A stretch of DNA of 45,873 nucleotides from Bacteroidia bacterium (GTDB lineage: Bacteria > Bacteroidota > Bacteroidia > Bacteroidales > Dysgonomonadaceae): contig BNXH01000006.1 of assembly GCA_025999435.1 (NCBI GenBank), positions 1 through 45,873 of the forward strand. Direction: 5' to 3'. The notes beneath the pieces were generated by a model. That model was not told the DNA's origin and did no database searches. It saw only the letters and a program-made list of their open reading frames with translations. This document shows, piece by piece, positions 22,249-42,076 of this stretch. Each line of letters begins with the position of its first letter. The stretch's first letter is position 1. A program made the translations under genes and the position numbers.

Positions 22249-23325
22249 TTATTTATCGAAATTTTTAATAGATTCTAAAAAAGATTTATCCGGCCTGCCA
22301 AAAAAGGCCAGACCTGCCGAGCCATTGTCCATAGCCAGACGGATAATCATTTTCGGGTCTGCCTGATCCTTTTTCAGATCGTTCAAGAAAATGGCTGAAA
22401 ATACCTTTGCAGGAGACACAGCATCCACATCTTCTTTCGTACAGGCGCCCATCCACTTATAGTCCTGATTATAAAATCCGTAATATATCATTGGCTGATA
22501 GAAATCAAGCTTCCATTTATCCCAGTCCTGCATAACGAGCAGACGCGATAAAGATGGAGTAGGAAACGGCGAGGCGCTTATTTTCATGCCATGCTTGTGC
22601 ACAATATCTACCAAAGGCGCTACACATTCGGTAACCTGATCGAGACGAAACTGGTGCCACGCACTATCCTGCGTAGGATCTTCCAATTCACGTGGATCAT
22701 AGTTATACAACGCTTTAAACTTGCCTATAGCAAACGGATGGTATCCATAATCCCATTCCGGATACACTTTATCCTGCTTAATATTATATTTGGGCTGTAT
22801 GCCTTCCGGCAATATGGCATCTACATAGCGCGTAAAGTCGAGACTGATTCCTTTCAGCCCATCAATATGGCACAGTTCCTCCACTTGAGCTTCGAGTTCT
22901 TTACGAAATTCAGGTATTGCCGGATTCATAAATTTATAATGGTCCACATAGGCCTTATGTGTAGCCATCGATTCTCCTTTGGCATTATAATCGAGCCATT
23001 CAGGGTGTTTTTCGGCTAGTTTCAACTGATTTATTCCCCAGAACCAAACATATACATCCACATTGTATTTGCCGGCAATAGGGATCACTTTTTTAAGAGC
23101 CTCGATATCACCTTTCGTATTTACATTAACACCCCTTACACCATGTGATGAGTAGAGAGAAAACAGCGAATCATAGTCACATGATTCTCTATAGTCGAGC
23201 CATGTCCAGAAACGGGGAAGCCCGTCCTCCGTGTAATATTTTTTATCATTGTCACTGCACGCCGACAGTATGACGATTGCCGTAACAAATAATACTCTCA
23301 GAATGACAGAATATATTTTTTTCAT
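22249..23325 (-). CDS. GHL10-type putative glycoside hydrolase lipoprotein
   Basis: A 358-residue lipoprotein with lipobox ILSAC (Cys22). It adopts a likely TIM barrel: LPRFWTWLDYRES at the first strand, HGVRGVNVNTKG, YNVDVYVWFWGINQ, HIDGLKGISLDFTRYVDAIL with an acidic active-site-like position, HKHGMKISASPFPTP and LDFYQPMIYYGFYNQDY. This order fits the glycoside hydrolase-like GHL10 group often annotated as family 10 glycosylhydrolase. Substrate is unknown. It is the only enzyme of the SusC/SusD locus in view and its lipid anchor suggests the outer membrane. A 71-base gap with a hairpin separates it from susD, so its expression may be tuned separately from the pair. Confidence 0.8.
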   Translation of the reverse strand: MKKIYSVILRVLFVTAIVILSACSDNDKKYYTEDGLPRFWTWLDYRESCDYDSLFSLYSSHGVRGVNVNTKGDIEALKKVIPIAGKYNVDVYVWFWGINQLKLAEKHPEWLDYNAKGESMATHKAYVDHYKFMNPAIPEFRKELEAQVEELCHIDGLKGISLDFTRYVDAILPEGIQPKYNIKQDKVYPEWDYGYHPFAIGKFKALYNYDPRELEDPTQDSAWHQFRLDQVTECVAPLVDIVHKHGMKISASPFPTPSLSRLLVMQDWDKWKLDFYQPMIYYGFYNQDYKWMGACTKEDVDAVSPAKVFSAIFLNDLKKDQADPKMIIRLAMDNGSAGLAFFGRPDKSFLESIKNFDK

Positions 23326-23358
23326 ATATCAAATTATTTAAGGTTGTAACATCAAAGT

Positions 23359-23388
23359 GTTCTTCCCATCCTGACAGACAGGAAGAAC
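23359..23388 (-). promoter_or_regulatory. Intercistronic hairpin between susD-like and GHL10 genes
   Basis: GTTCTT (23359-23364) pairs with AAGAAC (23383-23388), and inside it CCTG (23370-23373) pairs with CAGG (23379-23382), with a five-base bulge. It could be a processing or partial termination site that lowers expression of the downstream enzyme gene relative to SusC/SusD; that role is an inference. Confidence 0.35.
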
Positions 23389-23396
23389 TTATCTAA

Positions 23397-25034
23397 TTAT
23401 TTAAGAGTACCGTCCTCTTTATACGGATCCCACCACATAGGTTTGCGTACATAACCTACATACACGCCTCCGAGAGACTGCATGGCATTATCAAGATTAG
23501 CCTTGTTCAATGTTTGCTCCGAAACCGGATAGGCCGCCCGCCTGATATAATTCTGAGGTGAGTCTGTACCATTATATGTTCCCGGGAACCATTGAGTATT
23601 TACATTTTCGAAAGGAATAAACTTAGGCTTCTGCAAACGCCTGTGGTCTGACCATGCCTCCCATCCTCCTTCAGGGAAGAGCGCAATCCACTTCTGTGTG
23701 ATAATCTTATCCAATTCGGTATTATAGTTGCCTGCGGTGTGAGTATAGGCAACCGTAGTACCATTAATATTCGGATCGGTATTGGCCAGATATGTATCTA
23801 TACCTGTCGTAATCCCCCATTCTGCCATATTGCTGCGGATACCGTTCTTATACCAGTCTTCCGCTGTGCCGCTGCCCGTGTTCCATGCCGGAAAACGCAC
23901 TTTGGCTTCTGCCAGCAGGAAGCAGATCTCACTGTATTTAAGCACATAGAAACGACGATTAACATTACCATATACATACTTGCCAATACGTGAGTTGTTT
24001 ACAGTAGATGTCTCATCATTTGTCGCAGCCAGTCCCGGATTCGTCCCTGTCCACCGTCCCATATATGCAGCATTTGTTGTGCCCGAGTTGGAACTGGTAG
24101 GATCGAACATAACAGGCCCGCGAGGGTCCACTATTGCCGGATGGGTGGTAGCAGTAACTGAACTTGGCCAAGGCTGACCGCCCAATCCGGAAAGAATATT
24201 ATACATAGTCTTACTCATACTGAAACCACCCTGTGAAAATACATTAGCTATTGGATGCTGAGAGAATGACGAACTGTTGTCGCACAAGATAGATACGGTT
24301 TCCGCATCATTGGAAACAACACCTCCGGCAATAGCCGATTCGGCTTCTGTCTTCGCTTTTGCAGCATCTACATGCGAAATGCGTATAGCCATACGCAGAC
24401 GAAGCGAGTTCGCAAACTTAATCCACTTGGCATTCGTTCCATCAAATATAATATCCTGTTTACCTATATTTATTTTCGAGTCGTCAAACTTAGAAGCAGC
24501 ATCCGCTAAAGTAGTGAATATATCATAATAGATATCTTTCTGATTATCGTATGGAGCAGCTTCATTGCTTCCGTCACAAGCTTTGAAGTATGGGACATCA
24601 CCCCAGAAATCTGTTGCCCTGAGCATTAGCCAGCACTTCCATATCCGTGCCATTTGCACCATATTGGCATATTCAGGTTTATCGGAGAAATTGCGGATTA
24701 CAGTATTCAGACTATTCAGGTAATAATATACGATATCCGTCCAAAAACTGGATATGCCTCCATCTACCTGATTATACGAGTTATAAGTAATACCCAGGTC
24801 ATTTGCATAAAACTGTGCATAGATATCGGGATTCAGCAACTGGATATTCTGATAATTGGTAGATGCCAGCATGGTGCGGCTGAAAGTTGCTGTAAGCACA
24901 AACTTGGGATCTGTCTGCTCCGGAGTGGGATTGTTCGGATCTGTATTGAACTCCTCAAAGTTTCCTGTGCATCCGGCTAACAGAAGCACCAAACCTGATA
25001 ACAAAATGCTCTTCTTAATATTTAGCATTTTCAT
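23397..25034 (-). CDS. SusD-like glycan-binding lipoprotein (SusD/RagB, PF12771 type)
   Basis: A 545-residue surface lipoprotein. From the ATG at 25034 the signal MKMLNIKKSILLSGLVLLL leads to lipobox LLAGC with Cys22; an ATG at 25061 would add nine residues and is also possible. The mature start TGNFEEFNTDPNNPT is the mark of the SusD-like_2 subfamily. Other family features are the TPR-type helices with RIWKCWLMLRATDFWGDVPY, LRLRMAIRISHVDA, the FYVLKYSEICFLLAEAKVRF helix and KIITQKWIALFPEGGWEAWS. It forms a lidded pair with the SusC barrel encoded just upstream (38-base gap to the 25034 start). The glycan cannot be read from the sequence. Confidence 0.92.
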   Translation of the reverse strand: MKMLNIKKSILLSGLVLLLAGCTGNFEEFNTDPNNPTPEQTDPKFVLTATFSRTMLASTNYQNIQLLNPDIYAQFYANDLGITYNSYNQVDGGISSFWTDIVYYYLNSLNTVIRNFSDKPEYANMVQMARIWKCWLMLRATDFWGDVPYFKACDGSNEAAPYDNQKDIYYDIFTTLADAASKFDDSKINIGKQDIIFDGTNAKWIKFANSLRLRMAIRISHVDAAKAKTEAESAIAGGVVSNDAETVSILCDNSSSFSQHPIANVFSQGGFSMSKTMYNILSGLGGQPWPSSVTATTHPAIVDPRGPVMFDPTSSNSGTTNAAYMGRWTGTNPGLAATNDETSTVNNSRIGKYVYGNVNRRFYVLKYSEICFLLAEAKVRFPAWNTGSGTAEDWYKNGIRSNMAEWGITTGIDTYLANTDPNINGTTVAYTHTAGNYNTELDKIITQKWIALFPEGGWEAWSDHRRLQKPKFIPFENVNTQWFPGTYNGTDSPQNYIRRAAYPVSEQTLNKANLDNAMQSLGGVYVGYVRKPMWWDPYKEDGTLK

Positions 25035-25072
25035 ATATTTTGCTTTAATTACATGTTTCATAATCTACAGTA

Positions 25073-28000
25073 TTAGAATGATACATTTAAGTTAAACCCT
25101 AAACTTCTTGTCGACGGGAAAGAGGCTGTTTCTACCCCTTGTACATTCCCGCTGGAGTATGTTGATTCAGGATCGAATCCCGGTAGTTTATTGTAAATAA
25201 AGAACAGATTATTTCCAACAAAGCTGAGTTTCAACGATTTTATAGGTGTACGCTTAAACCATTTTGCAGGGAACAGATAACCGAATGTTACTTCCCTCAA
25301 ACGGATATTGGTCATGCTGTATATGTAATGATCCTGCCCATAGCGTCCGAAGAAATACTGAGGGTTGATATATCCTGCCATCGGCGTTACACCATCAGAA
25401 GCTTTCACTCCGTCCACATATACTCCGGCATGTGCAGCAGTAGCGGCATCATACAAGTCTTTGTAGCGGCTTGCCGTAGCGGTTGCATACGGATTATAGC
25501 CCTGATCCTTTATATATTCCTCAAAGAACGGATACCAGGTATCCCTGCCAGCCAAAGTTTCTTCTGTAGCTCCATTTCCATTTAGCCTGACCATAGAGTT
25601 CAGGTACAATTTTCCACCGGCACGAATATCGATAAGGAAGTTGATATAAAAGCCCTTGTATGATAATGTCGAAGAAATACCTCCCGTCCAGTCAGGATTC
25701 ATATTTCCTACATATGTATCGCGGGTAGAGGAAACAGTAGGCGAACCATAGTATGCATTGGTACCTTCGCCTGTATCGGATAGCAGTAATTTACCATCTT
25801 CATTCCTCAACTGAGAAGTCGAGTACATTTCACCAACAGGCCGTCCTACTATTGCTTTTATATCGAGCTGCGTAGCACCCGGGGTCTGCATTAAATATTC
25901 AGATTGCACACCATCCAGTTCTACCACCTTAGATTTATTCTTCGCGAAATTGAAAGTCATATCCCAATTCCAATCTTTGTTTCTTATAATAGAAGCATTC
26001 AGTATTGCCTCTATACCTTTATTGTCTATACGTCCGGCATTGATTATTTTACTCGAATAACCCGATGTCATAGATGTTGCCACCCTGAATATCTGGTTCT
26101 TGGCCTGTTTCTGATAATATGTAAAATCAAGTCCTATGCGATTATTTAACAGCCTGATCTCGGCTCCTAGTTCATATGACTTGATAATCTCCGGTTTTAG
26201 GTTAGCATTCGGCAAAGAGTATGGTAATACCACCCCATTCTGCCCTCCGGGCAGATTTTGCAGAGTGGAGTACACCGGATACAGATTGTAAGGATCGGTA
26301 TCATTACCTGCTTCGGCAACTGATGCGCGCAGTTTAGCAAAAGACAGCCATTTAGGGGCTTTCACATCCACCCTATCCAGCAATTCGGTAACAATAACAC
26401 CCAGACCTGCAGAAGGATAGAAAAAAGACCAGTTTCCTCTGGGTAAAGTAGATGACCAGTCGTTACGTGCCGTCAGGTCAAGATATGCCCAATTGTCATA
26501 ACTTAACTGTGCGAATCCGTAAAATGATTGTATCTGCTTTTTTGACTTTGAGTTATTAGTTGCTTTGGTAATACCGTTAGCAATAGTATATAATCCGTCG
26601 ATATTAAGGCCCTGTGCATCCGATATCAAATAATTAGATCTTCTGTCCATTATGTTTCCACCGAAGGATATATTACCAGAAAATTTGGAACTGAACAGAT
26701 TATCCTTTTTCGCAGAAAGAAGGAAGTCTCCGTTAATTTCGAGGAACCGGGTCATATTCTCCATATACCGTCCGTTGATAGATGTTGCGATAGATATATT
26801 GGAACCTTTGGCGTACCATTCTTCTACCCCATACTGGTAAGTATCGATACCTAATCGCCCCATAAGGCTCAGCCAGTCTGTAAACTGATACTTCAACGAA
26901 GCGAAACCGGTTATGCGGTCGGTAACATCCTCATTGCCCTTCATCTCTGTGGCAATATACGGGTTGAGAACAAGTGTAGGGGTTCCTGACTCAAACATTC
27001 TTGAATTGCCTGTACTCGGATCTATTACCGGATGAAAATCAGCCAGATTGATACTTCTTGGTACATACTGGTAGCCGAACATCGGGTTGTATCCATTTAC
27101 TGCCAAAGTCGGGCGGTTAGTGCCTACCTGCCTAGTGTAAGATATTTTAGTATCATACGTCAGATTCTTAAGCACATCCCCTGTAGCTCTTATAGTAGTG
27201 CCTGTTTTTACAAACTTATTGCCTGGTATTACACCTGTTGAGCGGGAATCGGATAAAGACGCACGGATACTTGATTTCCCGGAACTCAGGTTTAAATCGA
27301 CATTGTTGTTCCATGTATATCCTGTCTTCAGCAAATGATACATATCGTTATCGCTGTATGAGAAAGGACGTGACTGTCCGGTCCAGTCCAACAATAGGAC
27401 CGGATCATTACTGAGAATACCTGCCCATGTTGCATTATTGGCTTTCAGTATCTGCCCTTCCATTTTCGGCCCCCAGCTCGATCGCAGGTTATTCTGAAAT
27501 TCACCCAAAGTACCTTGCCCATACACATTCTGGTATTTAGGTTGGATCATCAGCTTTTCTACCGTGAAATTCGAGGTAAGTGAAACCCTTGGCCCTCCGT
27601 CCAATGTACCTTTCTTAGTAGTGATCAGGAGGACTCCATTACCGGCACGCGAACCGTAAAGTGCTGTAGCCGAAGGCCCTTTCAAAACGGAGATAGATTC
27701 AATATCATCTTGGTTCAGATTCGATATGCCATCGCCATAGTCAGTTCCTCCCCAGCTCACGTCTCCGGAAGTTCCCTGTTTGTTATCATAAGGGATGCCG
27801 TCGACAACAATAAGAGGCATATTGTTACCCATCAGGGAATTAGTACCACGCACCAGAATGCGGGTCGAACCTCCCGGAGTAGATGTTTTCGAAATGTTCA
27901 TACCGGCAACTTTTCCGGATAGTGCATTAACCACACTACTTGATCTGTTTTCAATAATCGCACCGGATTTTACTTCCTGTACCGAATATGTCAGAGCTTT

Positions 28001-28675
28001 CTTTTCCCGGGAAATGCCCAGGGCTGTTACTACCACTTCCTCCAGCATTTTCGAATCTTCATTCAACGAAATCGCATAATGGCTGACTTGTGTGATAGGC
28101 ACAACACGTGTGGTGTATCCCAAAAAAGAAATGGTTAAAGTAGCGTCCGACAGTAAGATGTTCAGTTCGAAGCGCCCTTCATTGTCGGTCATTGCCCCGT
28201 TAGTTGTTCCTGTCACGGTTACAGATGCACCTGCTACAGGGCCGCTTTCATCAGTTACTACTCCGGTAATTTTTCGTCTTGTCTGCTGTTGCCCTGCCGG
28301 GAGGCTGGTAACTTCAGCAACATTTTTCTTCGATATCAATGTGATATAATTATTGGATACAGTATAAGATAAGTTTGAATTCTGAAAGGATGCATCCAGA
28401 ACTTCAAAAAGATTCCTGTTGCCGGCATCAACTTTCACTTCCTGATCGGTATTCACATCTTTAGCATTGTATACAAACAGATAATTCGTTTGTTTCTCTA
28501 TTTCCGAAATCAGCTTTTTCAGCTTCATCGACTTACCTTTGATATTTATTATCGACTTCTGATTGTGTATGCTGCTGTTTATATTGTCTGCTTGCACCTG
28601 AAGTATATTGCATAAAAATAGAAGAATAAACATACACCACACTAGCTTGAAGCCCTTTAAATTGTGTTTTTTCAT
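25073..28675 (-). CDS. SusC/RagA TonB-dependent outer-membrane transporter with STN domain
   Basis: A 1200-residue TonB-dependent transporter. In order: signal peptide to about residue 29, STN domain at about 43-115 (LKKLISEIEKQTNYLFVYNA and ISLLSYT-like strands), carboxypeptidase-regulatory-like domain at about 133-210 (KITGVVTDESGPVAGASVTV), SusC box region LEEVVVTALGISREKKAL, plug at about 225-350 (LSGKVAGMNISKTSTPGGST, PLIVVDGIPYDN, SVLKGPSATALYGSRAGNGV) and the 22-strand barrel ending LGFNLNVSF. The STN domain is the part that contacts FecR-type anti-sigma factors, so this transporter is likely both importer and sensor for the ECF sigma/FecR genes upstream. It is complete, with no truncation. 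Confidence 0.95.
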   Translation of the reverse strand: MKKHNLKGFKLVWCMFILLFLCNILQVQADNINSSIHNQKSIINIKGKSMKLKKLISEIEKQTNYLFVYNAKDVNTDQEVKVDAGNRNLFEVLDASFQNSNLSYTVSNNYITLISKKNVAEVTSLPAGQQQTRRKITGVVTDESGPVAGASVTVTGTTNGAMTDNEGRFELNILLSDATLTISFLGYTTRVVPITQVSHYAISLNEDSKMLEEVVVTALGISREKKALTYSVQEVKSGAIIENRSSSVVNALSGKVAGMNISKTSTPGGSTRILVRGTNSLMGNNMPLIVVDGIPYDNKQGTSGDVSWGGTDYGDGISNLNQDDIESISVLKGPSATALYGSRAGNGVLLITTKKGTLDGGPRVSLTSNFTVEKLMIQPKYQNVYGQGTLGEFQNNLRSSWGPKMEGQILKANNATWAGILSNDPVLLLDWTGQSRPFSYSDNDMYHLLKTGYTWNNNVDLNLSSGKSSIRASLSDSRSTGVIPGNKFVKTGTTIRATGDVLKNLTYDTKISYTRQVGTNRPTLAVNGYNPMFGYQYVPRSINLADFHPVIDPSTGNSRMFESGTPTLVLNPYIATEMKGNEDVTDRITGFASLKYQFTDWLSLMGRLGIDTYQYGVEEWYAKGSNISIATSINGRYMENMTRFLEINGDFLLSAKKDNLFSSKFSGNISFGGNIMDRRSNYLISDAQGLNIDGLYTIANGITKATNNSKSKKQIQSFYGFAQLSYDNWAYLDLTARNDWSSTLPRGNWSFFYPSAGLGVIVTELLDRVDVKAPKWLSFAKLRASVAEAGNDTDPYNLYPVYSTLQNLPGGQNGVVLPYSLPNANLKPEIIKSYELGAEIRLLNNRIGLDFTYYQKQAKNQIFRVATSMTSGYSSKIINAGRIDNKGIEAILNASIIRNKDWNWDMTFNFAKNKSKVVELDGVQSEYLMQTPGATQLDIKAIVGRPVGEMYSTSQLRNEDGKLLLSDTGEGTNAYYGSPTVSSTRDTYVGNMNPDWTGGISSTLSYKGFYINFLIDIRAGGKLYLNSMVRLNGNGATEETLAGRDTWYPFFEEYIKDQGYNPYATATASRYKDLYDAATAAHAGVYVDGVKASDGVTPMAGYINPQYFFGRYGQDHYIYSMTNIRLREVTFGYLFPAKWFKRTPIKSLKLSFVGNNLFFIYNKLPGFDPESTYSSGNVQGVETASFPSTRSLGFNLNVSF

Positions 28676-28830
28676 AGATTTAAATATATTTAAATTAATA
28701 ATTCAATTAATTTATTTATTTGTAGTTGCAGTGCTTCCTACATGTTTTGTCTGACCGATACGGAGACAATGCAAAGCCTTTAACATTCAATCGTTTTCCA
28801 TAGGCGCCACCTTTTTTGTTTATATTACTC

Positions 28831-29793
28831 TCACTTATAGATGTATACTAACTTATCATTTATCATCTTGAATTTGTAACCGCTATCGCTCGAAGCCAGT
28901 ATCGCTTTCATTATATGATCTACTCTATCGCTTTGCCGTATTTTTCCGGAGACCTTCACATTAGACAGTTCTACATTGTTTTCCATCTTGAATTCGATAT
29001 CATACCAAAGAGACAGATATTCCATAATCAGGGAAATGGGTATCGACTGGAAATAGAATATACCTTCTTTAATATATCTCTCCTCGATATACTCAGATTT
29101 CGATTTAATCAAATGGTTGTTTGTAGAGCTCACCACCTTTTCTTGCGGAGCAAGATGCAAGCTATCACTTTCGCTCGTCCTGTTATATACAAATACCGAA
29201 CCTTCTAATAAGTTTACTTCAAATCTCGGATGATGCGAATAAGCAAAGACATTGAATTTGGTACCTAGCACTTTTATATCGTAGGTATGGGTATTCACGA
29301 TAAATGGCTTACCCTGATTATGCGCTACAGTAAAGAAGCCTTCACCCTCCAGTTCTACTCTGCGGTCGAATGGCGTAGGTATTTTCAGTTTCGAAAGTGG
29401 GCTCAACCAAACTTCGGATCCGTCGTTCAGCACAATACGTGTCCGCTGACCTTCGGGCGACATGATCTCTGTAAAGTCTTTCTTCGGTGTGTTTGATCCG
29501 AATATAAACCATGACAAACCTAATGTAAGGCAAGCAACGGCAGCATATTTCGATATTGTTATCAAAAACCGTTTCCTATTTTTGCGCCGTCTTCTCTTTT
29601 GCAAGTTATTCCATCCTTCAGAGACAAAGTCGTCACATTCTTCATCCCGGTAATAAGCTATTGAGGACATCAGGTTTTGTACACGGGCAAATTCTGCTTT
29701 TAATTCCTCATCTTTATCCAATGTCGCGAAAAGAATCTCCTGTTCTTTCGGAGTTCGTTCCTTCGAAAAATATTTATCTAATAATTCGTTCAC
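28831..29793 (-). CDS. FecR-type anti-sigma factor, GTG start
   Basis: A 320-residue inner-membrane regulator. N-terminal cytoplasmic anti-sigma part (1 to about 73; NELLDKYFSKERTPKEQEIL), one membrane helix at about 77-99 (YAAVACLTLGLSWFIFG), periplasmic FecR domain (about 110-215; MSPEGQRTRIVLNDGSEVWL then VELEGEGFFTVAHNQGKPFI, TYDIKVLGTKFNVFAY) and a C-terminal DUF4974-like domain (about 238-320; FYFQSIPISLIMEYLSLWYD), which probably meets the STN domain of SusC. The start codon is GTG at 29793; no in-frame ATG is available just upstream. The gap to the sigma gene is 226 bases and to susC 155 bases. Confidence 0.92.
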   Translation of the reverse strand: MNELLDKYFSKERTPKEQEILFATLDKDEELKAEFARVQNLMSSIAYYRDEECDDFVSEGWNNLQKRRRRKNRKRFLITISKYAAVACLTLGLSWFIFGSNTPKKDFTEIMSPEGQRTRIVLNDGSEVWLSPLSKLKIPTPFDRRVELEGEGFFTVAHNQGKPFIVNTHTYDIKVLGTKFNVFAYSHHPRFEVNLLEGSVFVYNRTSESDSLHLAPQEKVVSSTNNHLIKSKSEYIEERYIKEGIFYFQSIPISLIMEYLSLWYDIEFKMENNVELSNVKVSGKIRQSDRVDHIMKAILASSDSGYKFKMINDKLVYIYK

Positions 29794-30019
29794 AGTGGGT
29801 ATTTTTAAGTATGACGTAGAAAAATGATCTTACCACTATACACATTTCTATTTTTTTTAGTGAAAAATGTCAATCAGTAGTTAAAGGGGGCAAATAGTTA
29901 TCAGTTGTTTAGTAACTTAAAAGTTAAGTAGAAGAGTATATTGTTTGCTGCTGATTCGCTTGAAAAGATTATGTTTATTAAATTTATAAGAGTTAAGAGC
30001 CTGGGCAGATAGTTTCAGC

Positions 30020-30589
30020 CTAAAAAAAGAAAAAGAACAGAGGTAAATAATCCTTTAAACCTACCGATAGCCGCCTGATTGCCGATGACATGTGATTTTC
30101 TACAGTATTAGTCGAAATATTCAATCTTGCGGCTACTTGCTTATGACTGAGCCCCTCGAAACGGCAAAGGATAAAAACTTCCCGACAACGTGGAGGTAAT
30201 GTATCGATAGCCTTTTGCAGGACTATTTCCAGCTTTTCGTCCGATAACAACGTATCGTCAAAATTCTCAAGGGAATATAGTTTCATTTCCTTCTCCTTAT
30301 ATTCCAACTCTGTCAACGAAAGTTCTTTTAACTTAATTTGCCGGCGCAGATGGTTTATACATTGGTTTTTAACGGAAGTAAAGAAATAAGCATTATGATT
30401 TTTAACTGCGTGTAAAATATCCTGATGTTCCAATAAATGTAGAAAGATATCCTGAACCACATTTTTGGCATCGTCCAACGAGTCCAGATAGGCCAACGAA
30501 AAACGTACTAATCGGGGATAATATGTCTTATATATGTCCGAAAAGCTCTCGTCTTCCTTCTGAATCATCTTACGATAATGAGATTCCAT
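30020..30589 (-). CDS. ECF-type RNA polymerase sigma factor
   Basis: A 189-residue sigma factor of the Bacteroides ECF type. Region 2 spans about residues 20-90 (DIYKTYYPRLVRFSLAYLDS, DDAKNVVQDIFLHLLEH, KNHNAYFFTSVKNQCINHLR). Region 4 spans about 125-180 (IDTLPPRCREVFILCRFEGL, HKQVAARLNISTNTVENHMS). The C-terminus is a hydrophobic LPLFFFFF tail, seen in other members of this group. It is most likely held inactive by the FecR protein encoded next and released when the SusC transporter binds its glycan, then transcribes susC/susD. ATG at 30589 used; ATG at 30568 is an alternative. Confidence 0.93.
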   Translation of the reverse strand: MESHYRKMIQKEDESFSDIYKTYYPRLVRFSLAYLDSLDDAKNVVQDIFLHLLEHQDILHAVKNHNAYFFTSVKNQCINHLRRQIKLKELSLTELEYKEKEMKLYSLENFDDTLLSDEKLEIVLQKAIDTLPPRCREVFILCRFEGLSHKQVAARLNISTNTVENHMSSAIRRLSVGLKDYLPLFFFFF

Positions 30590-33538: not shown

Positions 33539-33583
33539 TAATGTATTTTTCATGGTATTAGATTTATGGTTAGGAGTGAAGAT

Positions 33584-33603
33584 TGGTTGTCGGGAGACAA
33601 CCA
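33584..33603. terminator. Tetraloop hairpin
   Basis: TGGTTGTC (33584-33591) pairs perfectly with GACAACCA (33596-33603) around the loop GGGA. On the plus strand it is followed by TTCCTATTTT, a moderate U-tract, so it could end a short plus-strand RNA. It also lies about 70 bases beyond the hybrid sensor stop and could serve that gene. Confidence 0.45.
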
Positions 33604-33675
33604 TTCCTATTTTAAGCCCTTACGTATAAATAATCATTGAAATTCAGCAATACACAAACTTGATGTATTCGTTAT

Positions 33676-36600
33676 TCAATGTTTTTTTATTTTTTCAGAA
33701 AATTCTTTGGGAGTCATACCATATTGAATTTGGAATAGCTTGATGAAATAAGAAGGAGAATTGATGCCCACAAGATGGCAAATCTCGTTTATGCGATATT
33801 TTCCATCCTGAATCAACAGAACAGCTTTTTGCAGGCGGATGAGGCGGATAAATTCGATAGGTGAAGAATTTGTGAGATTTTTAATTTTCCTATGCAGGCT
33901 CGACCGGCTGAGGTTCAGGCGTTCTGCCAAAGTCTCTACATTGAAGTCATAATCTGTAATATTCATATTGACCAGTTCTACGACTTTCTCTAAAAAATCT
34001 TTTTCTCCCTGATGAGATACTGAGAGGTATGGTTTCTTTAAAAACTGTTCTATATCGCGCTGCCTGTTCTTTATTAAAGTTTCGAGCAGGGACGTCAGGT
34101 ATTTAATAGAGAATGGCTTTTCCACATATGCGTTAGCCCCGATTTTCAAGCCTTCCACTTTACTTGGCAAGTCGTTTTTAGCAGTCAGTAAGATGAAGAT
34201 GATATTATTATAATCAGAGTTCTCCCTTACGATTTTGCATAATTCAAAACCATCCATATTGGGCATCATCACATCGCTTATTATTACATCTATCTGCTTC
34301 GATTTCAAAACATCCAAAGCTTCATAGCCATCACCTGCCGATTCGGTAATGTATTCGTCTTTAAGTTCTTTGGATATAAAATGAAGCATGTCTGTATTGT
34401 CTTCCACAATCAATATAGTTTGTTTGGGAGACGAGAAAAACGATAGGGCGATATTTTGTTGCGTCAACGATTCTTCTTTGGTTTCCTGATCTGCAAGGAG
34501 GATTTTAATCTGTTTATGCATCTTGTTTACTACCGGCATTTTCAGCGTGAACACATTCATATCTTGCTGATTTTCGTAATATACGTACCCCCCGTGCATT
34601 TCTACTAAAGACCTTGTGAGGGACAAACCTATACCTGACCCGTAAGTTTCCTTCTGGGAAGATTTGACCTGAAAGAAAGGTTCAAAAATTTTGTCCTTGA
34701 GATTGGCCGGTATTAATTCACCATCATTCATTATTGTTATGGTATAATAGTCGTCATCGGCAGTAACCAGTATATAAATTTTTGATTTGGAATATTTTAT
34801 AGCATTCGACAGTAAGTTGTTCAATATTTTGGTAAAGGCATCCTTGTCTGCTGCTGCCAGTATTGGCGATTCCCTTTCTTCCGTAAAGTTGAGCTGTATC
34901 TTTTTTAAGGTTATTTCTTTTTCGAACTGGGAGATTATTTCGGAAATAAACTGATTGACATTTATTTGCTGTATATCCAGCGTGAACTTGTTACTATCCA
35001 CTTTCCTGAAGTCCAGAAGTTGATTTATCAACTGCAATAGCTGATTGGTATTCCTGTTTATAATATCCAGATTGTACTTTATATCCTCGTTTTGGATATC
35101 ATATTCCATGATGGACTCCAATGGGCCATTGATGAGAGTTAACGGTGTACGGATTTCATGGGCAATGTTTGTGAAGAAATCAACTTTTGCCTCGTAGATT
35201 TCTTTATCCCGTTTAATCTCAAATATATGCTGATTTTCGATCGATTTGTCCCTGCTCTTTTTCAGGAAATAACAGACAAGTAAGGATATGGCCAAAACTA
35301 TTAGCAGGCAATAGGAAATATAAGCTAAGGTGGATTTCCACCAGGGAGGCAGTATGACAAGCTTGATAGAAGCCTCTTCATTGTTCCAAAGCCCGTCGTT
35401 ATTGCTGCCTTTTACCCTTAGCGTATATTCGCCGGGAGACAGTTTAGCGTACGATGCCGTGTAATTGTTATTTGTTGTTACCCAATTATCGTCGACATTT
35501 TCCAATTTGTAGGCATACAGGTTCGATTTAGGAGAAGTGTAGCTAAGAGCGATAAAATAGAACATGATATTAGACTGGTCATAATTCAATGTCAGCTCTT
35601 TTGTATAGATAATACTCTCCTGTATGGGGAAAACATCGGACTGGGGCGAAACTTCTTTATTCCCTATAGTCAATTTCGTAATATAGACGGGAGGAATAAA
35701 CTTATTGGTTTCGGAATAACCCGGCCTGAATGTAACCAAGCCATCCAGGCCCCCAAAGTAGAATGTCCCGTCATTTGCTATTAGCGCTGCTTTATAATTA
35801 AAACGGTTGGATAAAAGCCCGTCATTCTGGGTATATACCTTTACTTCGTTAGTATGAGGGGTCAGCCTGACCAGTCCTTTATTTGTGCCGAACCATAGGT
35901 TATGATCTTTATCTTCCAGTATTTTGTATGTAATATCATCGGGCAGGCCATCTTTTATTGTATATGTCTTAAAGCGCCTGTCCTTCTTGTTATACATACA
36001 AGCGCCTCCCCGGTCGGTCGAAAACCAGATGTTTCCTAAGTGGTCTTCGGTGATGCTGTTTACCGAGTTTGAACTTATTGAATTATCTTTATTTGACGTG
36101 AAATGTATTAACTCCTGATTGTCCGGATTGAATTGGAAGACTCCGTTGCCTAAGGTGGCAACCCATATATATCCCTCGGTATCTTCCATTATGTCGTGAA
36201 CGAAACACAGTCCAAATTCTTTCATTCCGGAAAATTTATCGTTTTGCCTGCCGGAAACAAAAATTCCCCAGGCATTCCCCAGCCAAATCTTACCTTTTCT
36301 GTCCTCGCACAAGGCATATATACTTTCTTCATTCAGCCCCAAGGTTTCGGATGAATAGTGTTTTACCGAATTATTTTGCAAATCTATAATATCCACGCCT
36401 CCTTTGAAATATCCGACCCATAGCTTCGAGTCTTGCATGAGCATCCCCAGAGTACGTTTATTATGTGTTGTTTTCGGAACTTTGCTAAAATGTTTTCGAG
36501 TAGTGTCGAAAAACATCAATCCGGCATCCTCAGTTCCAATCCATATATTTCCATTGTTATCTTCCCTCATCTCCCGTATACGGCTCGATAAATTTTTCTG

Positions 36601-37650
36601 TTCCGATTTTTGAGGGATATAACAATTAAAAATATTTTTCTTATTAGGGAAATAACATGCTCCACTAAAGTATGTACCGATCCATATCCCACCTTCGCTG
36701 TCCTGGTATGTTTTTTCTATGTAATTGTCAGACAACAGATGTTTTTGAAATGCCAGTTGTCCATTTGTTTTACTCAGTTTTATCTTGTCGAGGCTAACGC
36801 TGAATAAACCATCCTGCGTACTCACCCAAAGGTCTGAATCGTAGATCGCAAGATGCCTTATTATTTTGAAGTCTATTTCGGGAAGCCCCATATGGCTTAC
36901 TATTCCGTTCCGCTTATCCAAAAGTAGCAAGCGTTCTTCATGTATTCCAATTATTAACTGTTCCTCGTAGTGGCATATCGTAAAGATGTTTTTCCCCATA
37001 ACAGATTCTTTGCTGTTATCCATATCAGCATATTGGACAAAAGAATCATTTTTACTATCATATAAATATATACCCGAGCCATTTGTGCCTATCCATACCC
37101 GCCCGTTTTTTTCTATTGCAATGCATTGAGGATTGCTTACGCTGGGAAGCACTTCGTCTACGACCGAATACAATATCAGTTTTTCAGATCCCGGATTGAA
37201 TTTAAAGACCCCCTGGTTAGGTACAACAATCCACAAGAAACCATCATTATCCATTTGTATGTCTTCCACCCATTGAGTAATTTCAATGCCCTTTTCTGTT
37301 TTATAATCGAAAGAGGAAAATATCTCAGTTACAGGGTTGAATACAAAGACGCCTTTGTCTGTCCCTACCCATATCTTGTTTTTCGCGTCGACGAAGAGCG
37401 AACTGATATTGTTGTTCCGTTTGCCTGTGCGGGGAGAATAACAATCGTAAACTTCCATATTGACACCATCGAACCTGTTCAGCTTATTCAGCGTCCCAAA
37501 CCAAATGAAACCGTTGCCGTCCTGGATGATTGATTTTACATTATGGTGCGACAAGCCGTTCTGGTCGTTTATAGACATATAGTTATTTTGCGCGCATAAA
37601 GATGCAATCCCTTCAAAGATAATAAGGCAAAGGATAAATAGATGTTTCAT
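33676..37650 (-). CDS. Hybrid two-component system regulator (HTCS), sensor kinase fused to response regulator and AraC domain
   Basis: A 1324-residue inner-membrane one-protein signalling system. The ATG at 37650 starts the signal peptide (MKHLFILCLIIFEGIASLCA); a frame to 37740 has no signal and crosses the promoter. Two seven-bladed propellers of Reg_prop repeats fill about 25-680 (IIQDGNGFIWFGT, DAKNKIWVGTDKGVFVFNP, EDHLGNIWFSTDRGGACMYN). A Y_Y_Y domain follows at about 690-760, a membrane helix at about 770-795, HisKA with FFTNIAHEIRTPLTLINGP (phospho-acceptor His near 831), HATPase (NNLLSNAIKYSK, GSGIGLSLTRSLVEM), a receiver domain (ILIVEDN, DVMMPNMDGFE with Asp near 1126) and an AraC HTH at about 1220-1324. 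HTCS proteins sense an oligosaccharide in the periplasm and switch on a neighbouring glycan locus. The only neighbour of that kind is the divergent, broken alpha-galactosidase remnant. Confidence 0.95.
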   Translation of the reverse strand: MKHLFILCLIIFEGIASLCAQNNYMSINDQNGLSHHNVKSIIQDGNGFIWFGTLNKLNRFDGVNMEVYDCYSPRTGKRNNNISSLFVDAKNKIWVGTDKGVFVFNPVTEIFSSFDYKTEKGIEITQWVEDIQMDNDGFLWIVVPNQGVFKFNPGSEKLILYSVVDEVLPSVSNPQCIAIEKNGRVWIGTNGSGIYLYDSKNDSFVQYADMDNSKESVMGKNIFTICHYEEQLIIGIHEERLLLLDKRNGIVSHMGLPEIDFKIIRHLAIYDSDLWVSTQDGLFSVSLDKIKLSKTNGQLAFQKHLLSDNYIEKTYQDSEGGIWIGTYFSGACYFPNKKNIFNCYIPQKSEQKNLSSRIREMREDNNGNIWIGTEDAGLMFFDTTRKHFSKVPKTTHNKRTLGMLMQDSKLWVGYFKGGVDIIDLQNNSVKHYSSETLGLNEESIYALCEDRKGKIWLGNAWGIFVSGRQNDKFSGMKEFGLCFVHDIMEDTEGYIWVATLGNGVFQFNPDNQELIHFTSNKDNSISSNSVNSITEDHLGNIWFSTDRGGACMYNKKDRRFKTYTIKDGLPDDITYKILEDKDHNLWFGTNKGLVRLTPHTNEVKVYTQNDGLLSNRFNYKAALIANDGTFYFGGLDGLVTFRPGYSETNKFIPPVYITKLTIGNKEVSPQSDVFPIQESIIYTKELTLNYDQSNIMFYFIALSYTSPKSNLYAYKLENVDDNWVTTNNNYTASYAKLSPGEYTLRVKGSNNDGLWNNEEASIKLVILPPWWKSTLAYISYCLLIVLAISLLVCYFLKKSRDKSIENQHIFEIKRDKEIYEAKVDFFTNIAHEIRTPLTLINGPLESIMEYDIQNEDIKYNLDIINRNTNQLLQLINQLLDFRKVDSNKFTLDIQQINVNQFISEIISQFEKEITLKKIQLNFTEERESPILAAADKDAFTKILNNLLSNAIKYSKSKIYILVTADDDYYTITIMNDGELIPANLKDKIFEPFFQVKSSQKETYGSGIGLSLTRSLVEMHGGYVYYENQQDMNVFTLKMPVVNKMHKQIKILLADQETKEESLTQQNIALSFFSSPKQTILIVEDNTDMLHFISKELKDEYITESAGDGYEALDVLKSKQIDVIISDVMMPNMDGFELCKIVRENSDYNNIIFILLTAKNDLPSKVEGLKIGANAYVEKPFSIKYLTSLLETLIKNRQRDIEQFLKKPYLSVSHQGEKDFLEKVVELVNMNITDYDFNVETLAERLNLSRSSLHRKIKNLTNSSPIEFIRLIRLQKAVLLIQDGKYRINEICHLVGINSPSYFIKLFQIQYGMTPKEFSEKIKKH

Positions 37651-37674
37651 GGTGCATGAGTAATGTATCTTACA

Positions 37675-37682
37675 CAAAGATA
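37675..37682 (-). promoter_or_regulatory. -7 box (TATCTTTG) for the hybrid sensor gene
   Basis: TATCTTTG on the minus strand, 24 bases before the ATG at 37650. It falls inside the longer frame and so fixes the start. Confidence 0.55.
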
Positions 37683-37788
37683 AGTAATATGATTTATACG
37701 CTTTTGTCAATCTATGCAACAAATGTCGCAACGGATACAAAAGAAGCGGTTCTTAAAGCAAATATACTATTAATTGGCGCTTACAAGA

Positions 37789-37819
37789 TTGAGTTAAATG
37801 AATTAAAAAGATATATTTG
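37789..37819 (+). promoter_or_regulatory. Promoter of the GH36 remnant (-33 TTG, -7 TATATTTG)
   Basis: TTG at 37789-37791 and TATATTTG at 37812-37819 are separated by 20 bases. The ATG at 37900 follows 80 bases later, leaving a long leader. The promoter of the broken gene thus appears intact. Confidence 0.5.
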
Positions 37820-37899
37820 TGATAAATTGGCTATTGCGTACTTCTTTCATTCTGAAATTTATATTATACATATTATAATCATCTAACCAAAAAACTGCA

Positions 37900-39435
37900 A
37901 TGAAAAATTTCTTTTTAATTGTTTTATGCTGTTTCTCGCTTAATATTTGGGGAACAACACAAAAAGGCCTGATCGAAATATCGACAGAGAACACATCCAT
38001 AATATTGGGGGTATCCCTTGACGGGAAAGTTTGTTTTCTGCATTGGGGCGAAAAGATAAAAGATATACAAGCTTTTATGGATAAGCCATTCATAAAACAG
38101 CCCGATACAAATGACAATATGGCGCCTCAATTATACCCGGCGTATGGCGGTCGCTATTATCTTGAACCGGCATTGAAACTTACGCACAATGACGGAGCGC
38201 TGACAACAAGCCTGATATACGATTCACTCGATAAAGTGGAAATAGACGACAACCGTACCGAATTTACGATTAAGCTCAAAGACAAAATATATCCTGTGTA
38301 TGTTGATGTACGGTTTGTATGCTATAAAAAAGAAGATGTGATTTGTCAAAGCGTAACTATTTACCATAATGAAGATAAAACGCTGAAAGTTGAAAACCTG
38401 GCATCCTCATATATCCCGATCCATGCGGAATCTTACTACCTGACCCACTTTCATGGTACATGGGCAGCCGAAATGCAGATGGAAGAAGAAAAACTAAGGC
38501 ATGGTATAAAAGTAATAGAAACAAAGAAAGGGGTAAGAGCCACACAAGCCGAAAATCCATCTTTCCTTATTTCGGTAAACACTCCTTCTAATGAAGACGC
38601 CGGGGAAATATACGCGGGAACGCTGGCCTGGTCCGGCAACTACAAACTGGCTTTTGAGATCGGCGAAACAGGGGAACTATTTATCACAGGAGGAATGAAC
38701 CCTTTCGCATCCACATACAATCTCAAAGCCGGAGAAAAACTGACAAGCCCCGAAATGATACTGACATACAGTCCGGCTGGAAAAGGGGAGATATCAAGAA
38801 ATTACCATGATTGGGCACGGGCATACGGCATGGCGCATGGCGACAGAACTCGCCCTATACTCCTCAATAGCTGGGAAGGCGCATATTTCAGTTTTGAAGA
38901 AAACACAATAACCTCGATGATAGACAACGCAGCCAATTTCGGAATAGAAATGTTTGTTCTCGACGATGGCTGGTTTGGCAATAAATATCCCCGCAATGGC
39001 GATAACGCCGGGTTGGGTGACTGGCAGGTGAATGAGAAAAAACTGCCAAGAGGAATTAGTTATCTGGCCGGCTATGCCGTAAACAAAGGTTTACAGTTTG
39101 GAATATGGATAGAGCCCGAAATGGTAAACCCCGACAGCGAACTGGCAAAGAAACACCCCGAATGGATTGTGAAAAGCGGAAAACGGGATATTCTTCCTAT
39201 GCGCAACCAGTGGCTTCTGGATCTGAGTAACCCTGAAGTACAGGACTTTGTGTTCGAAACGTTCGACAATGTCGTTTCTCTATCGAAAAATATAACCTAT
39301 GTGAAGTGGGATGCCAATCGCCATGTCGATAATGCCGGGTCTGAATATCTGACAAAGGATAATCAAACACACTTTTGGTTATTCATGGTGGGACTCTGTA
39401 AAGGATGCGAAAGCGACCGAAATAGCTCCGTTTAA
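37900..39435 (+). pseudogene. GH36 alpha-galactosidase, 3'-truncated by a deletion
   Basis: The 511-codon frame begins with a signal peptide (MKNFFLIVLCCFSLNIWG) and covers the GH36 N-terminal beta domain and most of the TIM barrel: RPILLNSWEGAYFSFEEN, FVLDDGWFGNKYPRNGDNAG, LQFGIWIEPEMVNPDSELAK and ITYVKWDANRHV, where Asp471 is the expected nucleophile. GH36 enzymes normally continue for about 200 residues with the acid/base Asp some 60 residues after the nucleophile, in a C-x-GGGR...WTSD-type region. Here similarity ends at QTHFW (39378), followed by 19 residues from the wrong frame (LFMVGLCKGCESDRNSSV) and a stop. The acid/base is therefore absent and the product should be inactive. The sequence after the break belongs to GH110. 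Confidence 0.88.
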
Positions 39436-40627
39436 AGTCCGCTTCGACAACGACTTTTCGTATGTAGGTTATCAGGTTGGGAATGCCCTTACCATTCGCG
39501 ACCACGTCCGCGACCATGTAGGGGTATTTGTCAATCGCTCTGAAAATGTGACGCTCGAGAATATCAATCTGCATTATATGCATGGATTGGGGATAGTATC
39601 GCAGTTTTCTGAAAACCTGAACTACAATAAGGTGAATATAGCGCCGTGGAGGGGGCGGACAATCGCTGCCTTTGCCGATGGCATGCATTTTTCAGGATGC
39701 AAGGGACATGTCGAGATAAGTGATTGTAAGATAAAGGGGCTGCACGACGACCCGATAAATGTACATGGCACATACCTGAAGATAACAGGAGTAAAATCTC
39801 CAAATAAGCTGGTAATGCGCTTTATGCATGGCCAGACTTACGGGATGCAACCTTTCTTCGAAAACGACTCGGTAGCTTTTATCCGGTCGAAGACATTACA
39901 AAAAGTGGACTATGCAATAGTGGAAAATGTGAGACGGATATCCGGCAGGGAGGTGGAGTTGTCTTTATCGAAACCTTTGCCTGATGGTATGGGCGAAGGC
40001 GATTGTTTGGAAAATATAACGTGTACTCCCTCTCTGCGAATATCCGGTTGCCGGCTTGAAATGACAAATACACGGGGTATCCTGGTCTCCACGCCCCGGA
40101 AGGTAGTCATCGAAAACAATTATTTTTACCGGACAGGTATGTATGCTATCATGATTGCGGCCGATGCCAACAGTTGGTATGAGTCCGGGGCGGTAAGTGA
40201 TGTGCTTATCAGGAATAATATTTTTGATGCCTGCGCCTATAACCTCTATTATGATAACAACAGCTATGTAATATCCATAGAGCCCGAAAACCACGAAAGG
40301 GTAAGCAAACATTGGGTTCACCGTAATATCCGTATCGAAGGCAATATCTTTAAAATATATAATGATAACCTGATATTGAAGGCAAAGAGTACTCAGAATC
40401 TTTATTTCGGTAAAAACACAATTGAGAATACGGCATACCTTCCAATAGTTAAGGGTAGGACAAAAAACGAGTCGTCCAGCCCGTCTTTCCGATTTGAGGA
40501 TTGTACTGGAGTAAAAATGGAAAATAATGTATATAAACCCGGTACTTCAGGAGTGAAAGTAGAGACTACATATATGAAGAAGAAAGATATTGATATTGAG
40601 CGTAATATATCTTTTACTTTTAAATAA
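39371..40627 (+). pseudogene. GH110 alpha-1,3-galactosidase, 5'-truncated by a deletion
   Basis: About 400 codons in a frame different from the GH36 part. Similarity to GH110 (BtGal110-like, blood-group-B-cleaving alpha-1,3-galactosidases) is clear: VGNALTIRDHVRDHVGVFVN, LENINLHYMHGLGIVSQFSE, GRTIAAFADGMHFSGCKGHV, LHDDPINVHGTYLKITG, RFMHGQTYGMQPFF, TNTRGILVSTPRKVVIENNY and FYRTGMYAIMIAADANSWYE. The HDDPINVHG motif, which I believe holds catalytic aspartates, is kept. The family also has some 200-250 residues before this, with a signal peptide, which are missing. No ATG exists in the frame after the stop at 39350-39352 until deep inside the beta-helix; the first start is an internal GTG at 39548. 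It is therefore a remnant unless translated from the upstream frame by slippage. The C-terminus looks complete. Confidence 0.88.
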
Positions 40628-40771
40628 TTGGTGAAATTTAAACAGTTACTATAAAACTTTAAATGATTATCCGCAATTATACCCCCCCCTCATATCGGTT
40701 AATTTTTTGATTTTCAACCATATAAAATATAGAAAGAAATGAAAGTAAATATTGAAAAACACAATGAAGAA

Positions 40772-41185
40772 ATGAGAACACGATTTTTAACACTAATTCT
40801 ACTATTTTTTTTACTTGTTTCTCACTCACAAGCACAACAAGACAGTATAAAGTCGAATAAGAACGTACAAGCACATGATAGAATTTTACAACTTGAAGTA
40901 CCTATTTATAAATTGTTTCCAACGGAAAACTATTGGACTTTTATTAAATTAGATACTCGAAATGGGAAAATGTGGCAGGTATCAAACGATGGCGACGAAG
41001 GTGTACAAATATTAAATTCTCGTTCTCTTGTACGGACAGAAGAAGATGAAATCAACGGAAGATTTACTCTTTATCCTACGGAGAATAAGTACAATTTCCT
41101 ATTACTTGACCAAATAAGTGGTCGAACATATCAAGTACAATGGGATAATGATAGCTATGAGAGGTTTGTTACTCCAATTTTTTAA
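40772..41185 (+). CDS. Small secreted protein with tandem YPTxN...GRxxQVQW motif
   Basis: From the ATG at 40772 it is 137 residues with signal peptide MRTRFLTLILLFFLLVSHSQ; an ATG at 40739 would add eleven polar residues in front. The mature part has two related units: KLFPTENYWTFIKLDTRNGK followed by MWQVSNDG, and TLYPTENKYNFLLLDQISGR followed by TYQVQWDND. I recall similar repeat proteins in Bacteroidales genomes, without known function. It follows the galactosidase remnant by 144 bases and has no clear -7 box. Its codon use is AT-rich like the surroundings. Confidence 0.65.
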   Translation: MRTRFLTLILLFFLLVSHSQAQQDSIKSNKNVQAHDRILQLEVPIYKLFPTENYWTFIKLDTRNGKMWQVSNDGDEGVQILNSRSLVRTEEDEINGRFTLYPTENKYNFLLLDQISGRTYQVQWDNDSYERFVTPIF

Positions 41186-41324
41186 TTTTAAATGTTTATG
41201 AATGTTTTATCAATAATCATTTTAGTTGGTTGCATTTGTTGCATTTGAAAGTTGAGTTTGCCGAATCAGAGAAGGGGTATTTTTGCGGATAATCATTAAA
41301 CTTAATTGCAAGAGAGGTTTTTGA

Positions 41325-41373
41325 TTTCACCACAGAGTTGAGTTTTATGTTAATTATATACTCCGTGGTGAAA
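41325..41373. repeat. Imperfect inverted repeat (CACCACAGAG / CTCCGTGGTG)
   Basis: TTTCACCACAGAG (41325-41337) pairs with CTCCGTGGTGAAA (41361-41373) with one A-C mismatch and a 23-base AT-rich loop. This CACCACAGAG...CTCCGTGGTG type occurs widely in Bacteroidales intergenic DNA as far as I recall. It lies 37 bases before the -7 box of the YigZ gene. Confidence 0.55.
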
Positions 41374-41409
41374 AGTCAAGATGAGTTCAATGAAAGCTCT
41401 AAAAAACCT

Positions 41410-41417
41410 TATCTTTG
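41410..41417 (+). promoter_or_regulatory. -7 box (TATCTTTG) directly abutting the YigZ start
   Basis: TATCTTTG ends only six bases before the ATG at 41424. With the usual spacing of about 4-7 bases from this box to the transcription start, the mRNA would begin at or next to the start codon. Confidence 0.6.
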
Positions 41418-41423
41418 CAACTT

Positions 41424-42032
41424 ATGGAAGATATTTATAAAACCATAGCGGATATATCCAAAGCAGTTTACACCGAGAAGCGAAGCAAATTTATTGCTTA
41501 TGCAATTCCTGTGCTTTCGACTGAAGATGTGAGAAAAGAAATAGATAAGCTGAAAAAAGAATTTTACGATGCCCGTCATATATGTTGGGCGTATATGCTG
41601 GGGGCTGATAGGCTTGAATTTCGGTCGAATGATGATGGTGAGCCGTCCGGAACGGCAGGAAAACCTATACTTGGACAGATAAATTCGAATGAGCTGACAA
41701 ATATTCTTATTGCTGTTATTCGATATTTTGGAGGAATCAAGCTGGGAACCAGCGGGCTTATTGTCGCATATAAAGAGGCGGCGGCAGAAGTAATAGCTAA
41801 TGCCGATATTGTGGAAAAAACAGTTGATGCTCAGGTTTCGTTTGGTTTTGAATATCCTTTTATGAATGATGTGATGAAAATTGTAAAAGACTTAGAACCG
41901 GCTATTTTAGAGCAGTCTTATGATATGAATTGTTCGATGACATTGGAAATACGGAAAGCTAAGTTTGACGAATTAAGAAATAGACTGGAAAAGGTGGAGT
42001 CCCTGAGTTTTATTGAACAGTATGAAAAGTGA
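41424..42032 (+). CDS. yigZ: YigZ/IMPACT (UPF0029) family protein
   Basis: A 202-residue cytoplasmic protein of the YigZ/IMPACT family. The N-terminal domain (about 1-130) has TEKRSKFIAYAIPVLS, FYDARHICWAYMLG, SNDDGEPSGTAGKPILGQIN and VIRYFGGIKLGTSGLIVAYK, the family signatures. The C-terminal ferredoxin-like domain (about 135-200) ends ESLSFIEQYEK. It is linked to translation or ribosome interaction in other organisms, but its biochemical activity is unsettled. A TTG start at 41415 would lie within the -7 box, so the ATG at 41424 is chosen. It may be translated from a leaderless mRNA. It converges with the helicase-nuclease gene, 44 bases apart. Confidence 0.9.
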   Translation: MEDIYKTIADISKAVYTEKRSKFIAYAIPVLSTEDVRKEIDKLKKEFYDARHICWAYMLGADRLEFRSNDDGEPSGTAGKPILGQINSNELTNILIAVIRYFGGIKLGTSGLIVAYKEAAAEVIANADIVEKTVDAQVSFGFEYPFMNDVMKIVKDLEPAILEQSYDMNCSMTLEIRKAKFDELRNRLEKVESLSFIEQYEK

Positions 42033-42076
42033 GAAGTGAAACATTGTTCGGCGCTGGTTTTATCTATAAGGCTGAT

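Follow-up and report, generated by a model that had tools for sequence, protein, structure and literature searches.

Two truncated alpha-galactosidase genes, one of family GH36 and one of the differently folded family GH110, were found joined out of frame in a Dysgonomonas-like bacterium, and the join is very probably the scar of a deletion, likely made in a single step, in a polysaccharide utilization locus (PUL). The window, which is the whole stretch of 45,873 nucleotides that was analysed (G000:C6:1-45873), comes from a draft genome of 2.2 Mb that is divided into 278 contigs and 51% complete. Among the protein database matches listed, the named near relatives of the GH36 protein are Dysgonomonas. 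The comparison at the DNA level covered 61 genomes including the window's own, and 30 of them showed some match. With the window's own entry set aside, the best E-values were 2e-211 for DNA and 1e-247 (GH36) and 6e-216 (GH110) for protein, and chance is therefore excluded as the source of the matches. The features are listed in Table 1. The pair of truncated genes, their different folds and their different frames had all been proposed in the original prediction and were borne out by Pfam, the open reading frames (ORFs) and the alignments with relatives.

Table 1. Features of the GH36-GH110 join and its surroundings, in window coordinates.
Feature	Position	Strand	Basis or remark
Island between clp-FopS and UPF0029 (HTCS, both remnants, 148-aa ORF)	33615..41414		
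HTCS (hybrid two-component regulator)	33676..37740	-	Pfam; frame intact
GH36 alpha-galactosidase gene, 5' two thirds	37900..39379	+	Pfam; seven relative loci; alignment of intact G036 protein with AgaB
Novel junction (very probable deletion scar)	39379..39380	+	Ends and starts of DNA matches; base comparison
Out-of-frame tail of the truncated GH36 ORF, 18 residues and stop, read from GH110 DNA	39379..39435	+	
GH110 alpha-1,3-galactosidase gene, 3' two thirds	39380..40627	+	+1 frame relative to GH36

The GH36 ORF (37900-39435) encodes 511 amino acids and is GH36-like through codon 493 (39376-39378), which is the end of the motif QTHFW. In the Pfam search the GH36 N-terminal domain (PF16875) was nearly whole, with positions 2-253 of 253 matched, while the Melibiase domain (PF02065) was covered over profile positions 3-219 of 347 only and the C-terminal domain of full-length relatives (PF16874) was absent from the remnant. 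The complete GH36 architecture of N-terminal domain, whole Melibiase barrel and C-terminal domain is thus not present. Passages of PMC5094572 and PMC8509150 give the catalytic residues of GH36 as a nucleophile Asp in a KWD motif and an acid/base Asp in an SD motif. The KWD motif is kept at residue 471 of the remnant (Asp codon 39310-39312). The acid/base Asp, which the AgaB alignment places at residue 542 in the G036 protein, lies beyond the join and so is gone from the window, in agreement with the predicted loss of the acid/base half, and the remnant does not hold the two catalytic Asp residues together. Following HFW, the seven relative loci continue with YEYVKGLY and the window with 18 unrelated residues and a TAA stop; the odd residues and the stop had been described correctly, but their number had been given as 19. 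The remnant shares the N-terminal domain, the first part of the barrel and KWD with AgaA/AgaB of Geobacillus and BoGal36A of Bacteroides ovatus, and differs from them in lacking the acid/base Asp, the remainder of the barrel and the C-terminal domain. Among the matches listed, the closest GH36 relative was 71-72% identical and most relatives were 726-764 aa long. Judged from its sequence, the remnant would form an incomplete barrel without active enzyme.

The 5' end of the GH36 gene and the neighbouring regulator gene had been expected to remain, and both do: the start of the GH36 ORF resembles a signal peptide by eye and the HTCS frame is intact. Over 18-1350, the window HTCS shared 48% identity with the HTCS adjoining GH36 in G036, a genome of another genus of the family, and it was 55% identical to the HTCS of G082, which belongs to a further genus. 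The GH36 promoter presumably still works; a scan of the window with the sigma-70 consensus was set aside because this consensus is unsuited to the phylum.

The open GH110 frame spans 39353-40627, and similarity to the family begins at the Tyr codon 39380-39382. From 39380 the DNA of this frame encodes YSWWDSVKDAKATEIAPFKV, and its counterpart inside the GH110 protein of G025 is YSSWDAVKDAKATELEPFKV. The Tyr corresponds to residue 200 in all five aligned full-length relatives (609-615 aa), which confirms that the N-terminal third is missing: about the first 199 of some 614 residues are lost, comprising the signal peptide, the first helix turns and over half of beta-barrel domain I. PF23763, which was matched at residues 150-229 of the intact relative P0122, was unmatched in the window. 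The earliest start codons of the frame are GTG at 39548 and ATG at 39578, with none near the join, as the prediction of GH110-like sequence without an ATG at this point had implied. The N-terminal helix turns, barrel domain I and a start codon are therefore not found together in the remnant. An excerpt of PMC7939477 names D321, D344 and D345 as the catalytic residues of PdGH110B. Three putative catalytic Asp codons are kept in the window (39677-39679, 39746-39748 and 39749-39751), and their spacing of 0, +23 and +24 equals that of D321/D344/D345 as counted in the translation rather than by a direct alignment with PdGH110B. The window thus resembles PdGH110B in this part of the beta-helix and differs from it in the absence of the first 199 or so residues and of the start codon. 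The closest GH110 relative among the matches listed was 74-76% identical. From these features the remnant would be expected to make no active enzyme, and the out-of-frame join probably disabled both enzymes. It is very doubtful that the remnant is translated on the upstream transcript from an internal start such as GTG 39548 or ATG 39578 into a cytoplasmic protein that has the three Asp and binds galactose or is weakly active.

The position of the join was given by both sets of DNA matches. Four of the eight long GH36 matches ended at 39379 (G021, G023, G019 and G036), three at 39350-39351 (G018, G004 and G012) and one at 39341 (G035), and the two GH110 matches started at 39380 (G025) and 39512 (G036). 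Base by base, the window follows the GH36 relatives through the T at 39379; from 39380 on, beginning with TAT, it follows the GH110 relatives. By comparison with these relatives, about 0-3 bases are common to both sides of the join. No intact GH36/GH110 allele of the same species was found in the 61 genomes compared by DNA or among the protein matches listed, and the parental layout is for this reason borrowed from other genera.

In both cases with GH36 and GH110 on one contig, the two genes occurred in one locus with the order and strand seen in the window. The G036 locus (C11, L094) consists of an HTCS gene on the minus strand followed on the plus strand by GH36, GH2, a melibiase-like gene, GH95, GH92 and GH110, and the HTCS adjoins GH36 directly, as in the window. 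The G082 locus (C79, L138 and L131) begins with HTCS on the minus strand, a SusC-like gene, a 549-aa gene without assignment, a melibiase-like gene and GH36, and continues with GH2, GH92, a melibiase-like gene, two GH95 genes, a galactokinase-like gene, a nucleotidyltransferase-like gene and GH110. A related HTCS, GH36 and GH110 thus stand in like order in the three loci, and the window differs in having none of the four (G036) or seven (G082) whole genes that lie between the equivalent break points. These break points are 10.8 kb apart in G036 and 15.5 kb apart in G082. Two further contigs with both genes are hinted at by the longest-contig values shared by P0028 and P0125 (146406) and by P0040 and P0130 (142997). 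The original prediction had taken a deletion as the simplest inference, which stands as the best explanation in view of these layouts, but its estimate of about 1.3 kb between adjacent genes does not agree with the distances in G036 and G082. A relative with both genes intact and adjacent had been called for; a shared locus was found, but GH36 and GH110 were not directly adjacent in any of the loci examined, and 1.3 kb is therefore a lower limit for the deletion.

Several other loci were considered as the parental state or as layout evidence and rejected. By flanking genes the nearest genomes are G020 and G008 (82-92% DNA identity). In G020 other genes fill the 8.5 kb before UPF0029 (L149) and the GH36 found elsewhere (L152) was only 51% identical, and in G008 the contig starts about 240 bases before UPF0029, which leaves nothing further upstream to read, and the genome has no GH36 or GH110 match. 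For layout, GH110 of G025 runs off a contig end, GH36 of G023 lies near one and GH110 of G078 is 424 bases from a contig start. A wider contig search produced 72 related loci, many from Lachnospiraceae, and with a best identity of 51% these were not close enough to set the limits of the deletion. The four GH110 relatives nearest to the window among the genomes searched (L094, L095, L130 and L131) were all located at a contig edge, the gene being cut in G025, at the mentioned 424 bases in G078, interrupted by TAA or near the end in G036, where the contig stops inside or just past it, and 30 bases short of the contig end in G082. A repeat adjoining GH110 genes could be the cause of these positions.

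The ancestral locus would accordingly have read HTCS, GH36, then GH2, melibiase-like, GH95, GH92 and perhaps more genes, and finally GH110, and the window species would once have had a layout of the G036/G082 type. A one-step illegitimate recombination over about 0-3 bases common to both ends would probably have removed the stretch from GH36 codon 494 through about GH110 codon 199, and a single event appears sufficient to describe the loss. The own draft, in which absence is weak evidence at 51% completeness, gave no match to the missing GH36 half and only a 63-residue match of 35% on C5 to the missing GH110 part. When the draft was compared at the DNA level with the 10.9-kb stretch of G036, the matches were all short and confined to C29 and C5, and these were rejected as missing PUL pieces since they are paralogues (a 42%-identical GH92 relative and a 36%-identical GH95 relative). 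Neither remnant has a further stop or frameshift. Strongly conserved columns were altered at 0 of 135 in GH36 (mean among 119 relatives, 0.81) and at 0 of 64 in GH110 (mean among 119 relatives, 0.40), which limits replacement at these positions to about 1.5% (95% confidence). The loss looks recent on these grounds, but a remnant could stay unchanged for a while by chance. As in deletion-derived pairs of gene remnants generally, there are two truncated genes and one sharp out-of-frame join, and the case differs only in the coincidence that both are alpha-galactosidases with different folds. The event is ordinary gene loss and pseudogene formation. The literature searched contained no paper on pseudogenes in Dysgonomonas PULs.

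An assembly artefact, in which the contig misjoins GH36 to GH110 and skips the PUL genes between them, is unlikely. Such an error is suggested by the fragmentation and incompleteness of the draft and by the fact that the truncated proteins occur in the protein database from one 45,873-base contig only. Against this, no N occurs in 37600-41400, the longest word common to the two sides in G036 within 60 nt is 7 bases, and k-mer assemblers need overlaps far longer than 7 bases. A collapse inside the island is disfavoured because it would need a long repeat, yet the longest shared word is this one. Genes skipped by the assembler were also not recovered elsewhere in the draft, where the G036 stretch matched only the short paralogues on C29 and C5. 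The flanks agree as well: 3 of the 6 relatives checked keep clp and UPF0029 in the window's order at a distance of 41-775 bp, and because they are near neighbours there the contig appears to join the right ends. A random misjoin would hardly have restored this neighbourhood. The deletion may also be carried by only part of the population. Somewhat less probable than a misassembly is a rearrangement in which the GH36 gene acquired a GH110 fragment from elsewhere, by translocation or during horizontal transfer. Close GH110 relatives are indeed missing from the 24 other genomes of the genus (G001-G024): no GH110 match at E 1e-80 was found in any of them, and at E 1e-10 GH110-like matches were lacking in 20 of the 24 and reached only 27-36% identity in the remaining four. 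The genes around GH36 also vary among six same-genus loci. In two of these genomes (G018 and G012) GH36 sits with GH2, melibiase-like and GH95 genes and without a close GH110, and the GH110-containing locus is therefore not general in the genus. The co-location of GH36 and GH110 with like order and strand in both informative cases nevertheless speaks against such a rearrangement, and one deletion suffices.

A programmed +1 frameshift that joins the halves into one two-fold protein has next to no chance of being correct, in agreement with the original prediction, which had regarded it as remote. The two frames overlap at 39353-39433, and the first start codon of the GH110 frame comes only at 39548, as such a mechanism would allow. 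Single-remnant protein searches admitted candidates up to 1.75 times the query length, by which a fusion of about 910 aa was excluded, and a 908-aa read-through was searched for this reason; it was scored against the 7995 candidates sharing most words. None of the 120 matches listed, which include the window's own GH36 piece, carried domains of both families, and the top coverage among them (65%) belonged to a protein of 735 aa whose domains were all of GH36. The product would in addition miss the GH36 acid/base residue and part of the barrel. No GH36-GH110 fusion or frameshift was found in the literature searched.

The probable deletion scar lies in an island between clp and UPF0029 whose extent is variable within the genus. 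In 4 of the 6 relatives checked, a single contig carried the matches to clp and UPF0029 in the window's order, with a gap of 649 bp (G004), 775 bp (G019), 41 bp (G018) and 8532 bp (G021), compared to 7.8 kb in the window; in G020 and G008 they were on separate contigs. A FopS-family sRNA (RF04319) was identified beside clp at 33543-33616 (+) with 60.4 bits (cut-off 56), and a search of six relatives gave many matches to this stretch. In every one of them the similarity to the clp region ends at the FopS 3' end (about 33614), which is where the island begins. No tRNA was found in the window by ARAGORN, and a tRNA integration site was set aside. The 148-aa ORF at 40739-41185 (+), between the GH110 remnant and UPF0029, had no Pfam match. 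The short intergenic stretch 42024-42069 recurs six times elsewhere in the own draft at 82-97% identity. An adjoining cluster at 22249-30589 (-) encodes an ECF-type sigma factor, FecR, SusC-like and SusD-like proteins and a GHL10-type protein.

The data speak against the expectation of a two-fold enzyme at the GH36-GH110 join. Automatic annotation would give an alpha-galactosidase of 511 aa and a beta-helix protein of 359 aa, and both names would mislead predictions of alpha-galactoside use. The join is a small and clear case of the erosion of a carbohydrate locus in Bacteroidetes, in which one step can remove several glycosidase genes and spare the regulator gene as well as the core genes at the flanks.
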